Assembly (NCBI GenBank): GCA_021813765.1
Contig: JAKAJM010000015.1
Location: 1 to 41,966 of the forward strand
Length of the DNA stretch: 41,966 bases
Reading direction: 5' to 3'
Origin: Nitrospirota bacterium
GTDB taxonomy: Bacteria; Nitrospirota; Thermodesulfovibrionia; Thermodesulfovibrionales; JdFR-88
Shown: one piece after another, positions 14,701 through 20,409 of the stretch
Numbering within the stretch: position 1 is the first letter of the stretch
How the letters are laid out: the number at the start of each line of letters is the position of its first letter
Notes under the pieces: generated by a model
The model's input: only the letters and a program-made list of their open reading frames with translations
Told to the model about the DNA's origin: nothing
The model's database searches: none
Program-made: the position numbers and the translations under genes

Positions 14701-15053
14701 GGATATCCGCCGCCCAGGATGCAGGCGAGCTAAGGAAGGTAACGGGAGAGCTTGCCGAAAGATTCGGGCCGCTTCCCGATGAGGTGAAGAACCTGGTGCA
14801 GGTTATGTCACTGCGGATAGAGGCCGCCAGGGCATCGGTTTCGGCGATATCGCAGGCAGGAGGAAAGGCACGTTTCAGATTCCACCCGGAGGCATCTCCT
14901 CCCGTGGAGACGCTCCTCAGGGATTTCGCAGGAAAGTTGCGCTTCATGCCGGAAGGTTCATTCGAGGTGATGATCTCCGAGCGCATGGTATTAAGGGACG
15001 TTGCCCAGGTCCTCCGTCATTTGACAGGCAGCGGCGATTTTGTTATTTTCTAA
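11799..15053 (+). CDS. mfd: Transcription-repair coupling factor Mfd
   Basis: DNA translocase that removes RNA polymerase stalled at lesions and recruits UvrA. It has 1084 residues. Order: UvrB-like N-terminal module (about 170-240, QFRMKGWILDIFPAGADDPA), CarD-like RNA polymerase interaction domain (about 415-490, LQPGDFVVHSDHGIGKFIGI), helicase motor with Walker A GDVGYGKTE (about 573-581), DEEH box IIDEEHRFGV (about 671), LLTATPIPRT, and QLRGRVGRG, then TRCF C-terminal domain. It starts 21 bases after the previous stop. It is full-length with all motor motifs present. Confidence 0.97.
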   Translation: MDILKAFAEFKESFLVPGFFPGEKPGGIFSLRGSSPALALAVLHLEQEGKGKKRYESVKPVLCVAPSEQEAIRLQRDTGFFLELLGAGEKGKKTFLLPEPDGAELSGRRAEFSLLTGAANFPKSKKTKNSRMVFFASRAALEAPLWPVEALEENIVRLSYPGSFPRAVLERRLTAMGYKPAPIVSQPGQFRMKGWILDIFPAGADDPARVEFFGDDIDSMKLFDVESQMHTSEIFSLTVLPVKEPEEGLPADLNGFTLFALEGEAQAREGFFPLHPFITLSGLPLKGEEAEGRLSVPVSSLAGHGLLSSERRDVNQIPGAVKTLRNAGYDMLFVLSSHSQADRVKNIIWEDGLHMPVLEPEEVSSYAGGLCATYVAQGLSAGFGLPGLLIVTDRELFGEKPAWKPMRKSRISGLIHTMDDLQPGDFVVHSDHGIGKFIGIAKQESDGARSDLMIIDYAGGARIYLPLYGIEKVHKYKNPEGASPQLDRLGGKAWERRKARVKKRLKEMAEKLVRIYAEREISKGFSFSPDTELHREFDSFFPYELTPDQSRAVADIKKDMEGPRPMERLLCGDVGYGKTEVAMRAAFKAVFDGKQVVVLVPTTLLCEQHWRTFTRRFSAFPVKIDFVSRFKGKAENLAAYEAFGKGETDILIGTHAILRSGLELKNLGLLIIDEEHRFGVAQKERIKEIRKNVDVLLLTATPIPRTFQMALSGIRDLSVIETPPEERLAVKSTISVFGHEVIKEAVEAELSRGGQVFFVHNRIEDLEKLLRLLRELFPGIRMGMAHGRMKESELEKVMIRFLDGQLDLLLSTAIIGAGLDIPTANTIIVDRADMIGLADLYQLRGRVGRGNVKAYAWFLIPGYDIITEDARKRLEALEELSYLGAGFRIALKDLEIRGAGNLLGGEQSGYISDIGFEMYVELLEKAVAELKGEPVVEREMPPVDLRVEALIPETYIEDVSLRIGFYRRISAAQDAGELRKVTGELAERFGPLPDEVKNLVQVMSLRIEAARASVSAISQAGGKARFRFHPEASPPVETLLRDFAGKLRFMPEGSFEVMISERMVLRDVAQVLRHLTGSGDFVIF

Positions 15054-15054
15054 C

Positions 15055-15858
15055 ATGAAAAATATCATGCCCGCTTTCCGTCTTTGCCGTGAAAGGGCTT
15101 TTTCTTTTTTGCTTTTTGCTTTTTTTTTGTTCTTTCTCCTGTTCCCCTCCGTTCGTTCTAATGCCCAGGAGCTGAGCTTCGTAAATCCCCTCGCCCCGTA
15201 TTCCGTTTTCAGGACGTGGAGCGCCTTCTCGCTTCCAAAGGGCAGCACCGCCATCTCCTACAGCATAGAGCGGGCCAAGGACCCCAGCTTTTACCGGCAC
15301 ATACTTGGTCTTTCCTACGGGGTTTCGAACAGGGCGGAGGTCACGCTTAACGTCCCCTACGTTGACAATCTGCAAGGGGGAAGCGGGTTTGAGGACATAG
15401 GGGGCGCCTTTAAATACAGGATGCGGGGGGAGGGCAGATACATGCCTGCGGCCGCTCTGCTGGTAATGGGATATCTGCCTACCGGGAGGGACGCCCTGAG
15501 CCGTGACGGAGGCGTGGGCGGCGGGGCCGCCTTGAGCCGGAAACTCGGCCCGCTGATGGCCCACGCAAATATCTTCTACACGGTCTCTGGCAAAAGCAGC
15601 CTTAAGGATGAGTTCGATTTCCTTACCGGCCTGGAATTCGCCGCGGCCCATAACCTGAAGATGCTGGGAGAGTTCCAGCTCAGAAAGAGCGCCTTTTCTG
15701 ACAGGGTAGACCTCTCGGAGCTACGTTTTGGCTACAGGCTGTCCAGCGGGGGCGTTTACAATACGCTTGGCATCGGGTTTGACCTTAAGAACAGGCATCC
15801 CGAGTTCAGGCTTATGCTTGCATTCGGGGCCTCTTTCGGGCGCGTGACCGGGTATTGA
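15055..15858 (+). CDS. Outer-membrane beta-barrel protein, Phenol_MetA_deg-like
   Basis: Probable outer-membrane protein of unknown role. It has 267 residues from the ATG at 15055 (1 base after the mfd stop). An in-frame ATG at 15040, inside mfd, would add five residues, and none of the candidates has a ribosome site. A very hydrophobic signal peptide with a T9 run in its codons ends near SNAQE. The mature part alternates polar and aromatic strands, with ILGLSYGVSNRAEVTLNVPY and AAALLVMGYLPTGRDALSRD resembling the PF13557 family of barrel proteins. The final residue is Tyr (GRVTGY), as expected for recognition by the BAM machinery. Family assignment is from memory of motif style and is moderate. 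Confidence 0.75.
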   Translation: MKNIMPAFRLCRERAFSFLLFAFFLFFLLFPSVRSNAQELSFVNPLAPYSVFRTWSAFSLPKGSTAISYSIERAKDPSFYRHILGLSYGVSNRAEVTLNVPYVDNLQGGSGFEDIGGAFKYRMRGEGRYMPAAALLVMGYLPTGRDALSRDGGVGGGAALSRKLGPLMAHANIFYTVSGKSSLKDEFDFLTGLEFAAAHNLKMLGEFQLRKSAFSDRVDLSELRFGYRLSSGGVYNTLGIGFDLKNRHPEFRLMLAFGASFGRVTGY

Positions 15859-15921: not shown

Positions 15922-16275
15922 ATGTTCGGAGACATCCAGGAGCTCCTTGTAATATTTATAATAGCCCTCCTTGTCGTTGGTCCCAAGAAACTGCCTGAAG
16001 TTGCAAAGGTAATGGGAAGATTTCTTGGAGAGCTTAAGCGCGCCCTGTCGGAAGTCCGGTTCGAACTGGATCAGGAGTTGGGTGCCCAGTCGAGGAGAGA
16101 GCAGGCACAGCAAGAGGCAAGCCGGGCAGGGCAGGAGATGGAAATTAAGGCAGATTGGGACAGTCCAGCGCATAAAGCCGCTTCAGACGGGCCGGAGGCC
16201 GGCAGTCCGGGGCATGAAAGCGGGGGCGCCCGAGCCGAAAGCGGCGAACCAGGCGCACCGGAACACAGGGCATAG
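15922..16275 (+). CDS. tatB: Twin-arginine translocase subunit, TatA/TatB family (TatB-like)
   Basis: Single-span membrane component of the Tat folded-protein exporter. It has 117 residues. Opening MFGDIQELLVIFIIALLVVG followed by PKKLPEVAK gives the membrane helix, hinge and start of the amphipathic helix. The MFxx..EL opening with Glu near position 7 and GPKKLPE resembles TatB more than TatA, but the two cannot be separated firmly. The C-terminal half (about 55-117) is a low-complexity Gln/Glu then Gly/Ala/Ser-rich tail. tatC follows after 3 bases, so they form one unit. Only one TatA/B gene is visible; another may lie elsewhere or this one may do both jobs. Confidence 0.9.
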   Translation: MFGDIQELLVIFIIALLVVGPKKLPEVAKVMGRFLGELKRALSEVRFELDQELGAQSRREQAQQEASRAGQEMEIKADWDSPAHKAASDGPEAGSPGHESGGARAESGEPGAPEHRA

Positions 16276-16278
16276 GGA

Positions 16279-17064
16279 ATGGCCGACGTAAGAATGCCCC
16301 TCACCGAGCACCTGGTCGAGCTGCGCAGGAGGTTGTTAGTCTCCTTTGCAGGTTTTTTTGCAGCGTTTTGCCTGTGTTTTTATTATTCCGGGACCATCTT
16401 CAAGGTCCTCACCATACCGCTTAGGTCATATCCCGAGATAAACCTTGTTTATCCCTTTTACCATCTGACAAAAAGGGCAAACACAACAAACCTGGTGTTT
16501 CTGGCTCCTGCGGAGGCCTTCTGGATGTATATAAAGATGGCCGCCATTGCGGCTTTCATTTTGTCCCTGCCGCTTATATTCAAGCAGGTATGGGGATTCA
16601 TATCGCCGGGGCTTGTGGCGAAGGAGAAGAGGCTGGTCGCCCCATTTGTGTTCTTCGCAACAGGGTTTTTCGTTTCAGGGGCAGCCTTTTGCTTTCTTGT
16701 CGTGCTGCCGTTCGCCCTGAACTTCCTTCTCCATTATCAGACCCAGTATGTAAAGCCGATGATATCCGTCGGCAACTACATGGATTTTTGCCTTAAATTC
16801 ATTCTTGCCTTCGGCGCCGTCTTTGAGCTGCCGATGATACTGGTGGTGCTTGCCAGATTGGGCGTGGTCTCCGCCCAGGGGCTGGCAAAAAACAGGAAAT
16901 ACGCCATCCTGGCGGCGTTCATAGTGGCCGCGATCCTTACCCCCACTCCCGACGCCTTCAACCAGACGCTTATGGCGCTGCCCATGATAGTGCTTTACGA
17001 GATAGGCATCATCGGCGCAAAGATATTTGGCAGGCGGTCCGCAGTTGAGCAGTCCGAGGGGTAA
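16279..17064 (+). CDS. tatC: Twin-arginine translocase subunit TatC
   Basis: Polytopic inner-membrane receptor for twin-arginine signal peptides. It has 261 residues with six predicted membrane segments. Motifs: N-terminal HLVELRRRLL, LVFLAPAEAFWMYIKM, FISPGLVAKEKR, FGAVFELPMILVVL with the conserved FELP, and AAILTPTPDAFNQTLMALPM. It starts 3 bases after the tatB-like stop. Its last 38 bases overlap the longest form of the small unknown gene downstream. The length is typical. Confidence 0.97.
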   Translation: MADVRMPLTEHLVELRRRLLVSFAGFFAAFCLCFYYSGTIFKVLTIPLRSYPEINLVYPFYHLTKRANTTNLVFLAPAEAFWMYIKMAAIAAFILSLPLIFKQVWGFISPGLVAKEKRLVAPFVFFATGFFVSGAAFCFLVVLPFALNFLLHYQTQYVKPMISVGNYMDFCLKFILAFGAVFELPMILVVLARLGVVSAQGLAKNRKYAILAAFIVAAILTPTPDAFNQTLMALPMIVLYEIGIIGAKIFGRRSAVEQSEG

Positions 17065-17323
17065 GAGCTTCAAATCCATAGCGCAGGACATCTCGGAGGG
17101 CTATGCCACCGTGAACCCAATATTCCTCAAGCCCTTCGAAAATGAGGACCTGAAGGCACTTTATGCGGAGCTTGAGAAATGCCTCACCGCGATAAGGTCG
17201 GAAAAATTCCCGCACGGTCAGATAGAGGCCATCAGGGCAAGAAACCTGAGGCTCCAGAGACTCTACGGGGCGGCGATGGTAATAAGGAATTTCGCCAGGG
17301 CAAAGCGTATAATCATTTTCTAA
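17027..17323 (+). CDS. Small helical protein of unknown function
   Basis: Unrecognised. Up to 98 residues, starting at TTG 17027 (overlapping tatC) or TTG 17045; no ATG is available near the N-terminus and no clear ribosome site is seen. From about residue 14 the sequence (FKSIAQDISEGYATVNPIFL, then LYAELEKCLTAIRSEKF and AIRARNLRLQRLYGAAMVIR) looks fully helical and charged, with codon use like its neighbours, so it is probably a real gene. It has no signal peptide or membrane segment. Coupling to tatC by overlap suggests co-expression. It ends 58 bases before the HEAT-repeat gene. Confidence 0.6.
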   Translation: MAGGPQLSSPRGKSFKSIAQDISEGYATVNPIFLKPFENEDLKALYAELEKCLTAIRSEKFPHGQIEAIRARNLRLQRLYGAAMVIRNFARAKRIIIF

Positions 17324-17381: not shown

Positions 17382-19034
17382 ATGTCTGACGAGGACATTT
17401 TAAGGCCCGCACAGGAGCTCATCCAGGTCTTTCAGCGCGCGAAAAAAAGCTTGCGCATGTACCCGGCCAATAATCCCGTTTACTCCAAAACGATAGAGGA
17501 CGCCTTCAGGCGCACGGACGCCTTCCTGCTGGAATATGGCGACCTGGAGCTCAAATTCAGGCAGAGTGAGATCCTGCTTGGAGAACAGGTGGTATATCAA
17601 AGCCAGGACAAGGAGGACAACTTCGCATTTTTCTTTTTCAAGGACGGGGTGAGGGAGCTGGTTTTCAGGAGAGGTCTTTCGTCCGGCGAGCTTGGGGAAT
17701 TCCTGCGGGCCATATCTTTCGACTTTGAGCGGGATGGAGAGGAAGAGGACATAGTGACGCTCCTTTGGGAGCGTGATTTTGAGCACATAAAATACGTTAT
17801 CGATGAGAACTTCCTTTTGGAGGATAACGTTTATGAGGACCAGGCTATCGCTCACGCAAAAGGGGAGGGTGCCGATGAGCCGGAGCTAAAGCGCATCTAC
17901 GGCGAGATACTGAAAGATGAAGGTGGCCCATTGCAGCCGGAGGTAGCCCCCGTTACAAAGGCCGACCTGCTTGAGCTCTTGAAAGAGCTTGAGAGGGATT
18001 CCACCAGCAAACTGCCGAAGCTGACCGGAATGCTTTTCGATTTTTTCAGGGATGCCGGTCCTTCCGAATGCGCGGAACCGGTTGACCTCATGATAGAGGT
18101 ATTCGAATACTGCATAAAAAAGGATGATCTTCGTTCGGCGGTCGGCCTGCTCTCCAAGGCATCGGGCCCTGTTGCGGGAGCGCCGGACGCCGCCCTTGTC
18201 AAAAAAGAGCTTGGCCGCCTTTTTGAGTTCGCCAGCTCGCAAAAGATAGTGGGCATGCTGGGAGAAAGGCTTGATACCGGAGAGATGTTCGAAGCCGTAT
18301 TTGAGGAATACGTGCGGCACCTGGACAAGTCAGCTGTGCCTTCCTTCATATCCATACTGGGCGAGCTCAAGACCATCGAGGCCAGGAAAAGGATAATCAA
18401 CGCCCTGGTCTTCCTTGGCGGGAAGGACATTCAGGCCCTCGTGAAGGGCCTCTCTGATCCCAGGTGGTATGTGGTGCGCAATATTATCTATATACTGAGA
18501 CAGATAAAGGACCGAAGCGTTATCGAATATCTGGTGAAGACCGCCCGCCACCAGGACGTCCGCGTGAGAATGGAAGTGCTGAGGGCCTTTGGAGAGTTCG
18601 AGGGGCCCGGGGTGCTGCCGGCGCTGAGAGAGGCCCTCGACGACCCGGAGGCGTCCATAAGGATGATGGCTGTAAGGGCGCTTGGCAAGCTGATGTCTGA
18701 GCCGGCAAAGGGGATAATAGTTTCCCGCATAAACGGCAAGGGTTTTATCGATCTGGATTTCAATGAAAAAAAAGAGTATTTTGAGGTCCTCGCGAACTGG
18801 GGCGGTCAGGAGACGGAAGAGTTCCTTTTGCGCATGCTCAGGACCGGATCTTTTTTCAGGAAAAACAAGGTGGCGGAGCTCAGGGCGTGCGCAGCTTATG
18901 GGCTGGGGCTGCTTGGCAGCCGCAGCGCCCTGGAGCACCTCGAGAAGCTTAAAAAAGCGAAAAACAGGCTTTTGAGCGATTATTCCTACAGGGCGATTAA
19001 ACGGATAGAGTATGGACAGCAGCCGGGACATTGA
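17382..19034 (+). CDS. HEAT-repeat protein with an N-terminal domain shared with the next gene
   Basis: Probable scaffold or signalling partner. It has 550 residues, with no signal peptide. Residues about 10-115 form an alpha/beta domain (SLRMYPANNPVYSKTIEDAF, LELKFRQSEILLGEQVVY, FRRGLSSGELGEFLRAI) that matches the N-terminus of the downstream HD-GYP protein in spacing and character. The middle (about 115-310) is helical and acidic. Residues about 310-545 hold HEAT-type repeats (RWYVVRNIIYILRQIKDRSV, DVRVRMEVLRAFGEFEGPGV, EASIRMMAVRALGKL). It overlaps the HD-GYP gene by 23 bases, so the two are translated together. HEAT arrays usually bind proteins; the partner is most simply the HD-GYP protein. 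Confidence 0.85.
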   Translation: MSDEDILRPAQELIQVFQRAKKSLRMYPANNPVYSKTIEDAFRRTDAFLLEYGDLELKFRQSEILLGEQVVYQSQDKEDNFAFFFFKDGVRELVFRRGLSSGELGEFLRAISFDFERDGEEEDIVTLLWERDFEHIKYVIDENFLLEDNVYEDQAIAHAKGEGADEPELKRIYGEILKDEGGPLQPEVAPVTKADLLELLKELERDSTSKLPKLTGMLFDFFRDAGPSECAEPVDLMIEVFEYCIKKDDLRSAVGLLSKASGPVAGAPDAALVKKELGRLFEFASSQKIVGMLGERLDTGEMFEAVFEEYVRHLDKSAVPSFISILGELKTIEARKRIINALVFLGGKDIQALVKGLSDPRWYVVRNIIYILRQIKDRSVIEYLVKTARHQDVRVRMEVLRAFGEFEGPGVLPALREALDDPEASIRMMAVRALGKLMSEPAKGIIVSRINGKGFIDLDFNEKKEYFEVLANWGGQETEEFLLRMLRTGSFFRKNKVAELRACAAYGLGLLGSRSALEHLEKLKKAKNRLLSDYSYRAIKRIEYGQQPGH

Positions 19035-20409
19035 CCGTTTGTCAAGAGACGTAGTGAGCCAGCTTGCGGTGATTGTGCGCACCTCGCAGCTTCACGATCC
19101 CCGGAACGTCGCCGTGGCCACATCCATCGAGAAGTTCGTAGCGGTTGCCAACGTGATCATACTGGAGGAAAGCTCCATGGACATAGAGATCGTTGGCGAG
19201 TACTTCTACCTGAACGGCGAACGGGTAAAGTTCACGATGGAGCATCTCCTTAACTTCGATTTCCTGCAGAGGGAGTTTAAAAAAAGGGCCCTTGGAAGCA
19301 TAAAATTCAGGTGCGAGGTCAGCACAGCGGACATGCAGGAGTTTTTGACGGCTTTCATCTCCTGCCAGTTCCAGGCGGAGCCTTTTGAAGACCTCCTGCT
19401 CAAGACCGACGGCATGAGGTGCATAAGCGTGGGCAGGCTCCGCAGGATATCGGAGCAGTCCGATGTGGACATGAGAAAGACGGTGAAGAGGACCTACTTC
19501 AATGCCGTCTCTTTCACCAGGGGCGTCATGAACAAGATAAAAATAGGCGAACGCATAAGCATGAAGAAGGCCAAAAGGGTGGTAGAGACCATGGTGGACA
19601 CCCTTCTGGACAAGGAAGAGTTCCTCTTCGGGATGACCGTCATCAAGAACTATGACGAGTATACCTTCCACCACTCCGTGAACGTGAGCATCCTTTCGGT
19701 GGCGCTGGGGCAGCGGCTGGGAATGGACAAGAAATCCCTGATGGAACTCGGCCTTGTCGCCCTTTTCCACGATATAGGAAAAACGGTGATACCCAACGAG
19801 ATATTGAACAAGCCGACCGTCTTTGACGAGCATGACTGGAAGGTCATGGCCCGCCACCCCTTGTTCGGGGTGAAACTGATATTCAGGATGAAGAGTTTCG
19901 ATGCGGCCAGTGTGCGCGCGGCCATAGTGGCTTATGAGCACCACATACATCCGGACGGTTCGGGTTATCCGGGGATAAAGGCTCTGCCGGAGCTTGACCT
20001 GTTCAGCAGGATAGTGGCGATTGCGGACCAGTACGACGCCATGACCTCGTCCAGGGTTTATGCCCGGACTCCCATGACGCCAGACAAAGCGCTGGCGCTG
20101 ATGGTAAAGCGGGTCTCATCCCAACTGGACCCACTGCTTATGAAGTTCTTCATAAACCTGGTGGGCACTTACCCCGTAGGGACCCTGGTGGTGCTGGACA
20201 CACTTGAGTTGGGCGTGGTCTCTGCGGCAAACCAGGCCGACAGCATGAGACCACGGGTAAGGGTCATAACCGACTCGGGTGGAAACAGGATAGAACCTTG
20301 GGTCGCCGACCTCACCAAAAAAAACGCGGGCGGGATGTACTTAAGAAGCATACGCAAAACGGTGGACCACAATAAATACGGCATCAACCTGGCCGAATAT
20401 TTTCTGTGA
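19012..20409 (+). CDS. HD-GYP domain phosphodiesterase
   Basis: Predicted to hydrolyse cyclic-di-GMP. It has 465 residues. The N-terminal about 15-118 is the domain shared with the upstream HEAT protein, followed by a helical linker. The HD-GYP domain spans about 200-385: His220-His221 begin the metal site, HDIGK at 253-257, and HHIHPDGSGYPG at 310-321 carries the GYP signature in its active form. The last about 75 residues (VGTLVVLDTLELGVVSAANQ) form the small C-terminal beta region often seen after HD-GYP. It has no membrane segments. All catalytic residues I can identify are present. Confidence 0.93.
   Translation: MDSSRDIDRLSRDVVSQLAVIVRTSQLHDPRNVAVATSIEKFVAVANVIILEESSMDIEIVGEYFYLNGERVKFTMEHLLNFDFLQREFKKRALGSIKFRCEVSTADMQEFLTAFISCQFQAEPFEDLLLKTDGMRCISVGRLRRISEQSDVDMRKTVKRTYFNAVSFTRGVMNKIKIGERISMKKAKRVVETMVDTLLDKEEFLFGMTVIKNYDEYTFHHSVNVSILSVALGQRLGMDKKSLMELGLVALFHDIGKTVIPNEILNKPTVFDEHDWKVMARHPLFGVKLIFRMKSFDAASVRAAIVAYEHHIHPDGSGYPGIKALPELDLFSRIVAIADQYDAMTSSRVYARTPMTPDKALALMVKRVSSQLDPLLMKFFINLVGTYPVGTLVVLDTLELGVVSAANQADSMRPRVRVITDSGGNRIEPWVADLTKKNAGGMYLRSIRKTVDHNKYGINLAEYFL

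Follow-up and report, generated by a model that had tools for sequence, protein, structure and literature searches.

How crosstalk is avoided in cells that contain many c-di-GMP enzymes is not settled. In RpfG-type complexes, an HD-GYP enzyme acts through GGDEF and PilZ protein partners in c-di-GMP signalling; to our knowledge, such signalling has been little studied in Thermodesulfovibrionia, in other Nitrospirota or in Desulfobacterota. Among solved structures, the relatives of the HD-GYP protein described here are PmGH (PDB 4MCW, E=5e-24) and V-cGAP3 (PDB 5Z7C), with which it shares the HD_5/HD-GYP domain, seven metal ligands, the catalytic lysine and the GYP motif. The two-domain protein Bd1817 of Bdellovibrio (PDB 3TM8), described as enzymatically inactive (PMC4159591), likewise carries an HD-GYP domain after an N-terminal region, and the sequence match to it covers the HD part only. 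On the HEAT side, the repeats are of the HEAT_PBS type, as in the PBS-lyase-like proteins CpcE and NblB.

Here we describe a gene pair within a stretch of 41,966 nucleotides from a Nitrospirota bacterium (hereafter the window), of Thermodesulfovibrionia type to judge from its closest named relatives, in which a HEAT-repeat protein and an HD-GYP protein are encoded by overlapping genes and begin with the same domain (Table 1). HD-GYP phosphodiesterases and HEAT repeats are known kinds of protein; the domain common to the two is unnamed in the libraries searched. Our favoured reading, drawn from sequence comparison and held with modest confidence, is that the two proteins would be translationally coupled partners of one c-di-GMP signalling unit, associating through the shared N-terminal domain, with the HEAT protein placing or regulating the phosphodiesterase. 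An initial annotation of this DNA had given the coordinates, the reading frames and the 23-base overlap, all of which proved correct when re-checked, and its naming of the two proteins agrees with their Pfam matches: the first gene product matches HEAT_2 (PF13646) in four stretches (E=1.4e-29, 102.6 bits against a cut-off of 27.7) and the second matches HD_5 (PF13487; E=2.2e-24, 86.5 bits against a cut-off of 27.2).

Table 1. Positions in the window of the HEAT/HD-GYP gene pair, its domains and its upstream neighbours.
Feature	Position	Strand	Evidence or remark
tatA/B-like gene and tatC, upstream of the pair	15922..17064	+	Pfam E=2e-12 and 6e-68
Small conserved ORF, about 92-98 aa, between tatC and the HEAT gene; start codon uncertain	17027..17323	+	Cluster in 46/80 loci
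HEAT-repeat protein gene, first of the pair, 550 aa	17382..19034	+	HEAT_2 match; full-length orthologues in 46/61 genomes and 80 named loci
N-terminal domain of the HEAT protein, aa 4-118, with RMYPxNNP turn	17391..17735	+	BLASTP, hhalign, AlphaFold; no Pfam/NCBIfam match
HEAT repeats, top-scoring stretch, about aa 350-439	18429..18698	+	Pfam
HD-GYP protein gene, second of the pair, 465 aa, predicted c-di-GMP phosphodiesterase	19012..20409	+	HD_5 match; PDB relatives
Overlap of the HEAT and HD-GYP genes, 23 bp	19012..19034	+	8-26 bp in relatives, 11 commonest
N-terminal domain of the HD-GYP protein, aa 6-123, HDPxN replacing YPxNNP	19027..19380	+	BLASTP, hhalign, AlphaFold
HD-GYP catalytic domain; ligands H221, H253-D254, H282, H310-H311, D339, plus K257 and G318-Y319-P320	19639..20133	+	Alignment to PmGH

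The N-termini of the HEAT and HD-GYP proteins are homologous over about 115 residues. Compared directly, the two sequences align by BLASTP at 23% identity over 120 residues without large gaps (E=2e-4), and family profiles built independently from 28-30 orthologues each align by hhalign over 114-117 columns (E=1.4e-6 and 1.8e-6). Deeper profiles of 60 and 66 orthologues raise the similarity to E=1.3e-7 over 121 columns, with a probability of 94 and a score of 49.8, against 16.0 for a reversed profile and at most 25.7 (best E 0.002) in 200 column-shuffled versions. When the N-domain profiles were compared with the C-terminal halves, nothing comparable was found, the lone low E-value arising from 11 residues common to both pieces by construction. 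A further bridge comes from paralogous proteins of another class (class C, below): the HEAT N-domain profile finds the N-domains of their HD-GYP members at E-values down to 3.6e-7, and the class C HEAT and HD-GYP N-domains align with each other at E=2.3e-17 (hhalign), linking the HEAT and HD families. The column shuffles, the reversed profile and these bridging paralogues together rule out a chance likeness. The common N-terminal domain proposed in the initial annotation thus stands, the segments that it had matched (HEAT residues 21-72 and 81-111 with HD-GYP residues 22-74 and 82-115) being those that align, and the profile-profile comparison that it had suggested yields significant, collinear similarity. 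Against a pairing of the two copies stands their divergence: the HD-GYP proteins of the window's own class have lost the domain's YP motif.

Structure prediction for each protein, also suggested in that annotation, gave N-terminal models that match element for element. The AlphaFold models, computed from separate alignments, have an identical order of helices (H) and strands (E) at nearly equal residue numbers, namely H3-26 H32-52 E55-59 E63-66 [E69-73] H81-86 E90-95 H101-112 H124-131 E136-140 for the HEAT protein (pLDDT 87) and H3-27 H33-53 E56-61 E64-67 H76-91 E94-99 H105-120 H124-132 E138-142 for the HD-GYP protein (pLDDT 86.5). The predicted layout of the domain is a helix, a YPxNP or HDPxN turn, a second helix, two or three strands, a helix, a strand and a final helix. 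The annotators had been unable to name the domain, and no curated model accounts for it: residues 1 to 165-170 of both proteins match no Pfam or NCBIfam model above cut-off, the HD-GYP N-domain reaching only a sub-threshold DUF3919 match (16.8 bits, with the cut-off at 25) and the HEAT N-domain matching nothing. Searches of PDB sequences with the N-domain profiles likewise returned no match. Among solved structures, the best Foldseek E-values for the two models are 0.5 and 0.9 and the best Z-scores 3.5 and 4.3, and the matches from Foldseek and VIA-align are weak, mutually unrelated and mostly partial. PelD and GAF chains appeared at E-values near 1 and were not counted as evidence, and the N-terminal region of Bd1817 is not among these structural matches.

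The pair itself is strongly conserved. In all 80 named loci from Nitrospirota and Desulfobacterota the two genes are adjacent on one strand and overlap, HEAT coming first, and the same order with an overlap is found in 30 of 30 loci from relatives (the two samples share some genomes), where the overlap measures 8-26 bases and most often 11. A co-occurrence survey, as proposed in the initial annotation, found full agreement over 61 genomes: the HEAT orthologue, counted at E<1e-100, occurs in 46 of them and is missing from 15, and the HD-GYP N-domain occurs in and is missing from exactly the same ones. The window's own assembly, which is 85% complete, holds exactly two copies of the N-domain, on the HEAT and HD-GYP proteins only, although about ten other HD-GYP domains lie elsewhere in that genome. 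At phylum scale the domain is present in 60 of 118 Nitrospirota genomes, with 39 same-strand domain pairs 1.5-2.5 kb apart, and in 63 of 148 genomes from the phylum of a Desulfobacterota MAG, with 53 such pairs at the same spacing, the longer protein coming first in 50 of the 53; the identity of these pairs as HEAT and HD-GYP was confirmed in a sample of the Nitrospirota loci and in a few of those from Desulfobacterota. Conservation of the pair in two phyla, with the same N-domain on both members, points to joint action of the proteins in a complex. In one genome (G042; L139:3417-5440) the pair is decaying, with a shortened HEAT gene and a large internal deletion in the HD-GYP gene; congeners of this genome (G022, G033 and G060) are without either gene.

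The surroundings of the pair are conserved mainly on one side: tatA/B, tatC and the small ORF are often retained upstream, and the downstream side is variable. The small ORF has no Pfam match, and tatC lies close upstream in 51 of the 80 loci. Upstream of tatA in the window (15040-15858) is a conserved protein of 272 aa from the same gene cluster, also without a Pfam match and, on a reading of its sequence, possibly a beta-barrel. Downstream on the opposite strand, about 10-12 of the 80 loci (including L068, L078, L086, L090, L102, L110 and L114) carry genes for an MglA-like small GTPase, a GAF-GGDEF protein and secA, which were named by reading the sequences and not by profile search. Such a setting invites the reading that an old duplication simply left one domain on two operon neighbours behind tatA-tatC that act separately. 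Domain duplication clearly occurred, and unrelated genes such as tatC can sit in conserved operons; yet tatC is not always beside the pair, which is adjacent also in paralogous classes and amid other neighbours, and the HEAT and HD-GYP genes are lost together, so we consider a mere by-product of history highly improbable.

Those paralogous classes, found in relatives, repeat the arrangement with proteins of other sizes, and in Nitrospirota both members of such pairs bear the N-domain. In class B (L130, L131 and L137) a HEAT protein of 547-563 aa comes first and an HD-GYP protein of 387-399 aa second; in class C (L134-L136, L145 and L146) the corresponding lengths are 697-738 and 363-424 aa. 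The link between the two is not absolute: no HD-GYP gene adjoins those for the HEAT proteins of class D (L132, L133 and L138), and no HEAT gene adjoins that for a second HD-GYP copy (L142 and L143). Several solo matches of the A7 profile that at first resemble partnerless HEAT proteins do adjoin an HD-GYP protein whose N-domain only other profiles detect. A tree of 35 N-domains groups those of the HD-GYP proteins of classes A and B (98/90) and those of the HEAT proteins of classes A, B and D (90/96), and does not reject a single HEAT clade (AU p=0.42), a result that duplication of the pair as a whole would predict. Read most simply, a single ancient split gave a HEAT-type and an HD-type copy of the domain, and whole pairs were duplicated afterwards; with its short length, the tree does not amount to proof.

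Beyond the pair, the domain recurs in other signalling proteins. Both phyla have GGDEF-AAA_16-HEAT proteins of 1180-1450 aa in which one or two copies of it precede the HEAT repeats. In these giants a diguanylate cyclase is fused to a STAND-like AAA_16 ATPase and a HEAT arm. A single copy is found in two of them (L163:2329-6168 and L208:570-4109) and tandem copies in four, arranged as GGDEF-AAA_16-N-N-HEAT (L196:2624-6811, L197:1282-5490, L202:1942-6300 and L203:2291-6508). The idea that each tandem consists of one HEAT-like and one HD-like copy found no support, since the profiles nearest to both copies are HEAT-type or class C ones, with the N-domain profiles of the class A and B HD-GYP proteins more distant. 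A fusion of 1680 aa (L207:3514-8553) joins the N-domain and HEAT repeats to cNMP-binding and PilZ domains, and two further loci (L198 and L199) have a cNMP-binding gene after the gene for an N-domain HEAT protein; one of these two cNMP-binding genes weakly matches PilZ. Three histidine kinases (HisKA-HATPase; L164:1423-3234, L165:2281-4095 and L213:3394-5112) start with a single copy and carry neither HEAT repeats nor an HD-GYP domain in the same protein; a PAS domain is clear in those of L164 and L165. Its presence on GGDEF-ATPase-HEAT proteins, on the PilZ fusion and on histidine kinases marks the domain as a module of c-di-GMP-linked signalling. Nothing speaks more strongly for a part of the window's HEAT protein in such signalling than the ties of N-domain HEAT proteins to enzymes or proteins that make, break or read c-di-GMP.

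The same set of proteins bears on what the domain does. Tandem copies within single chains show two such domains kept side by side. Counting against pairing, adjacent genes with a common domain could also come from a shared ligand without contact, and the single-copy histidine kinases are equally compatible with sensing or homodimerisation by the domain. A sensor role is the main rival: both proteins would bind the same small signal through the N-domain, perhaps as homodimers, without touching each other, one input thereby reaching two outputs. The domain's place ahead of PAS-HisKA-HATPase in the kinases is typical of input domains, and its attachment to several outputs (HD-GYP, HEAT and histidine kinase) would suit such a role; direct pairing nevertheless explains the obligate overlap, the one-to-one co-occurrence and the tandem copies more simply, and we regard the sensor as rather unlikely.

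The catalytic residues of the HD-GYP protein are intact. Ligand positions were taken from the alignment to PmGH (PDB 4MCW), with ligands as given in PMC4159591, and all of the residues listed for this domain in Table 1 are identical in every one of the 79 rows that covers them, and likewise in 14 of 14 representatives of other classes. With all metal ligands and K257 conserved, phosphodiesterase activity is to be expected. The E/D-T-G motif that provides the eighth ligand in the trinuclear subgroup is replaced by Y217-T-F, and with Y217 in place of E185 of PmGH the family falls in the Y/F, predicted binuclear subgroup (PMC4159591).

Under the pairing model, overlapping frames would probably couple the translation of the two genes, with the consequence that synthesis of the HD-GYP enzyme coincides in place and time with that of the HEAT protein. 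The N-domains would then most likely bring the two proteins together, like the side-by-side copies in the GGDEF-ATPase-N-N-HEAT chains; the HD-GYP domain, with its predicted binuclear site, would hydrolyse c-di-GMP; and the HEAT superhelix may serve as a docking or regulatory arm that places the phosphodiesterase at a target or gates its activity. The initial annotation had offered competition for the enzyme's signal as a second option. Since one of the two carriers of the domain is an enzyme and the other has no enzymatic domain, the HEAT protein could alternatively be a decoy or inhibitor, competing through its N-domain with homodimerisation of the HD-GYP protein, with activity set by the ratio of the two. 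Coupled translation would indeed fix that ratio, although a constant ratio makes a poor switch, and the HEAT half is well conserved and elsewhere fused to GGDEF or PilZ, which argues that it does more than fill a dimer face; we therefore judge the decoy improbable. As for the heteromeric signalling complex put forward in the initial annotation, the same domain does stand on both proteins, and the complex itself draws indirect support from adjacency (80/80), co-occurrence (61/61), the paralogous pairs, the presence of just two copies in this genome and the GGDEF and PilZ fusions.

More tentatively than for the pair, and with slightly less than even confidence, we suggest that a widespread pairing domain may organise c-di-GMP complexes in Nitrospirota and Desulfobacterota. 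The domain would join HEAT scaffolds to HD-GYP phosphodiesterases from neighbouring genes and, in fused relatives, to GGDEF cyclases with an AAA/STAND-type ATPase or to PilZ receptors; a single domain would thereby provide the local wiring for making, degrading and sensing c-di-GMP. If true, a domain that links HD-GYP to a HEAT scaffold in an overlapping gene pair conserved in two phyla, and is reused with GGDEF and PilZ, would be a direct, testable wiring rule; at minimum, the analysis yields a domain that is missing from the catalogues searched and could be entered in profile libraries. In the open-access literature we found no paper tying HD-GYP to HEAT repeats in this sense, and none combining PilZ, HEAT repeat and c-di-GMP.

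Set against the described systems, the window's pair differs on both sides. In comparison with PmGH and V-cGAP3, the N-terminal partner of the catalytic domain here is the unnamed domain and not GAF or REC, and besides the exchange of E185 for Y217 the HHE motif reads HH(M/L/I) in this HD-GYP family. The window's HEAT protein falls far below the NCBIfam cut-offs that define CpcE and NblB (30 against 300 bits for NblB) and is without a phycobilisome context. Compared with RpfG-type complexes, the pair itself is without GGDEF or PilZ, and the HD-GYP enzyme instead has as its partner a HEAT protein whose gene overlaps its own and which carries the same N-terminal domain.
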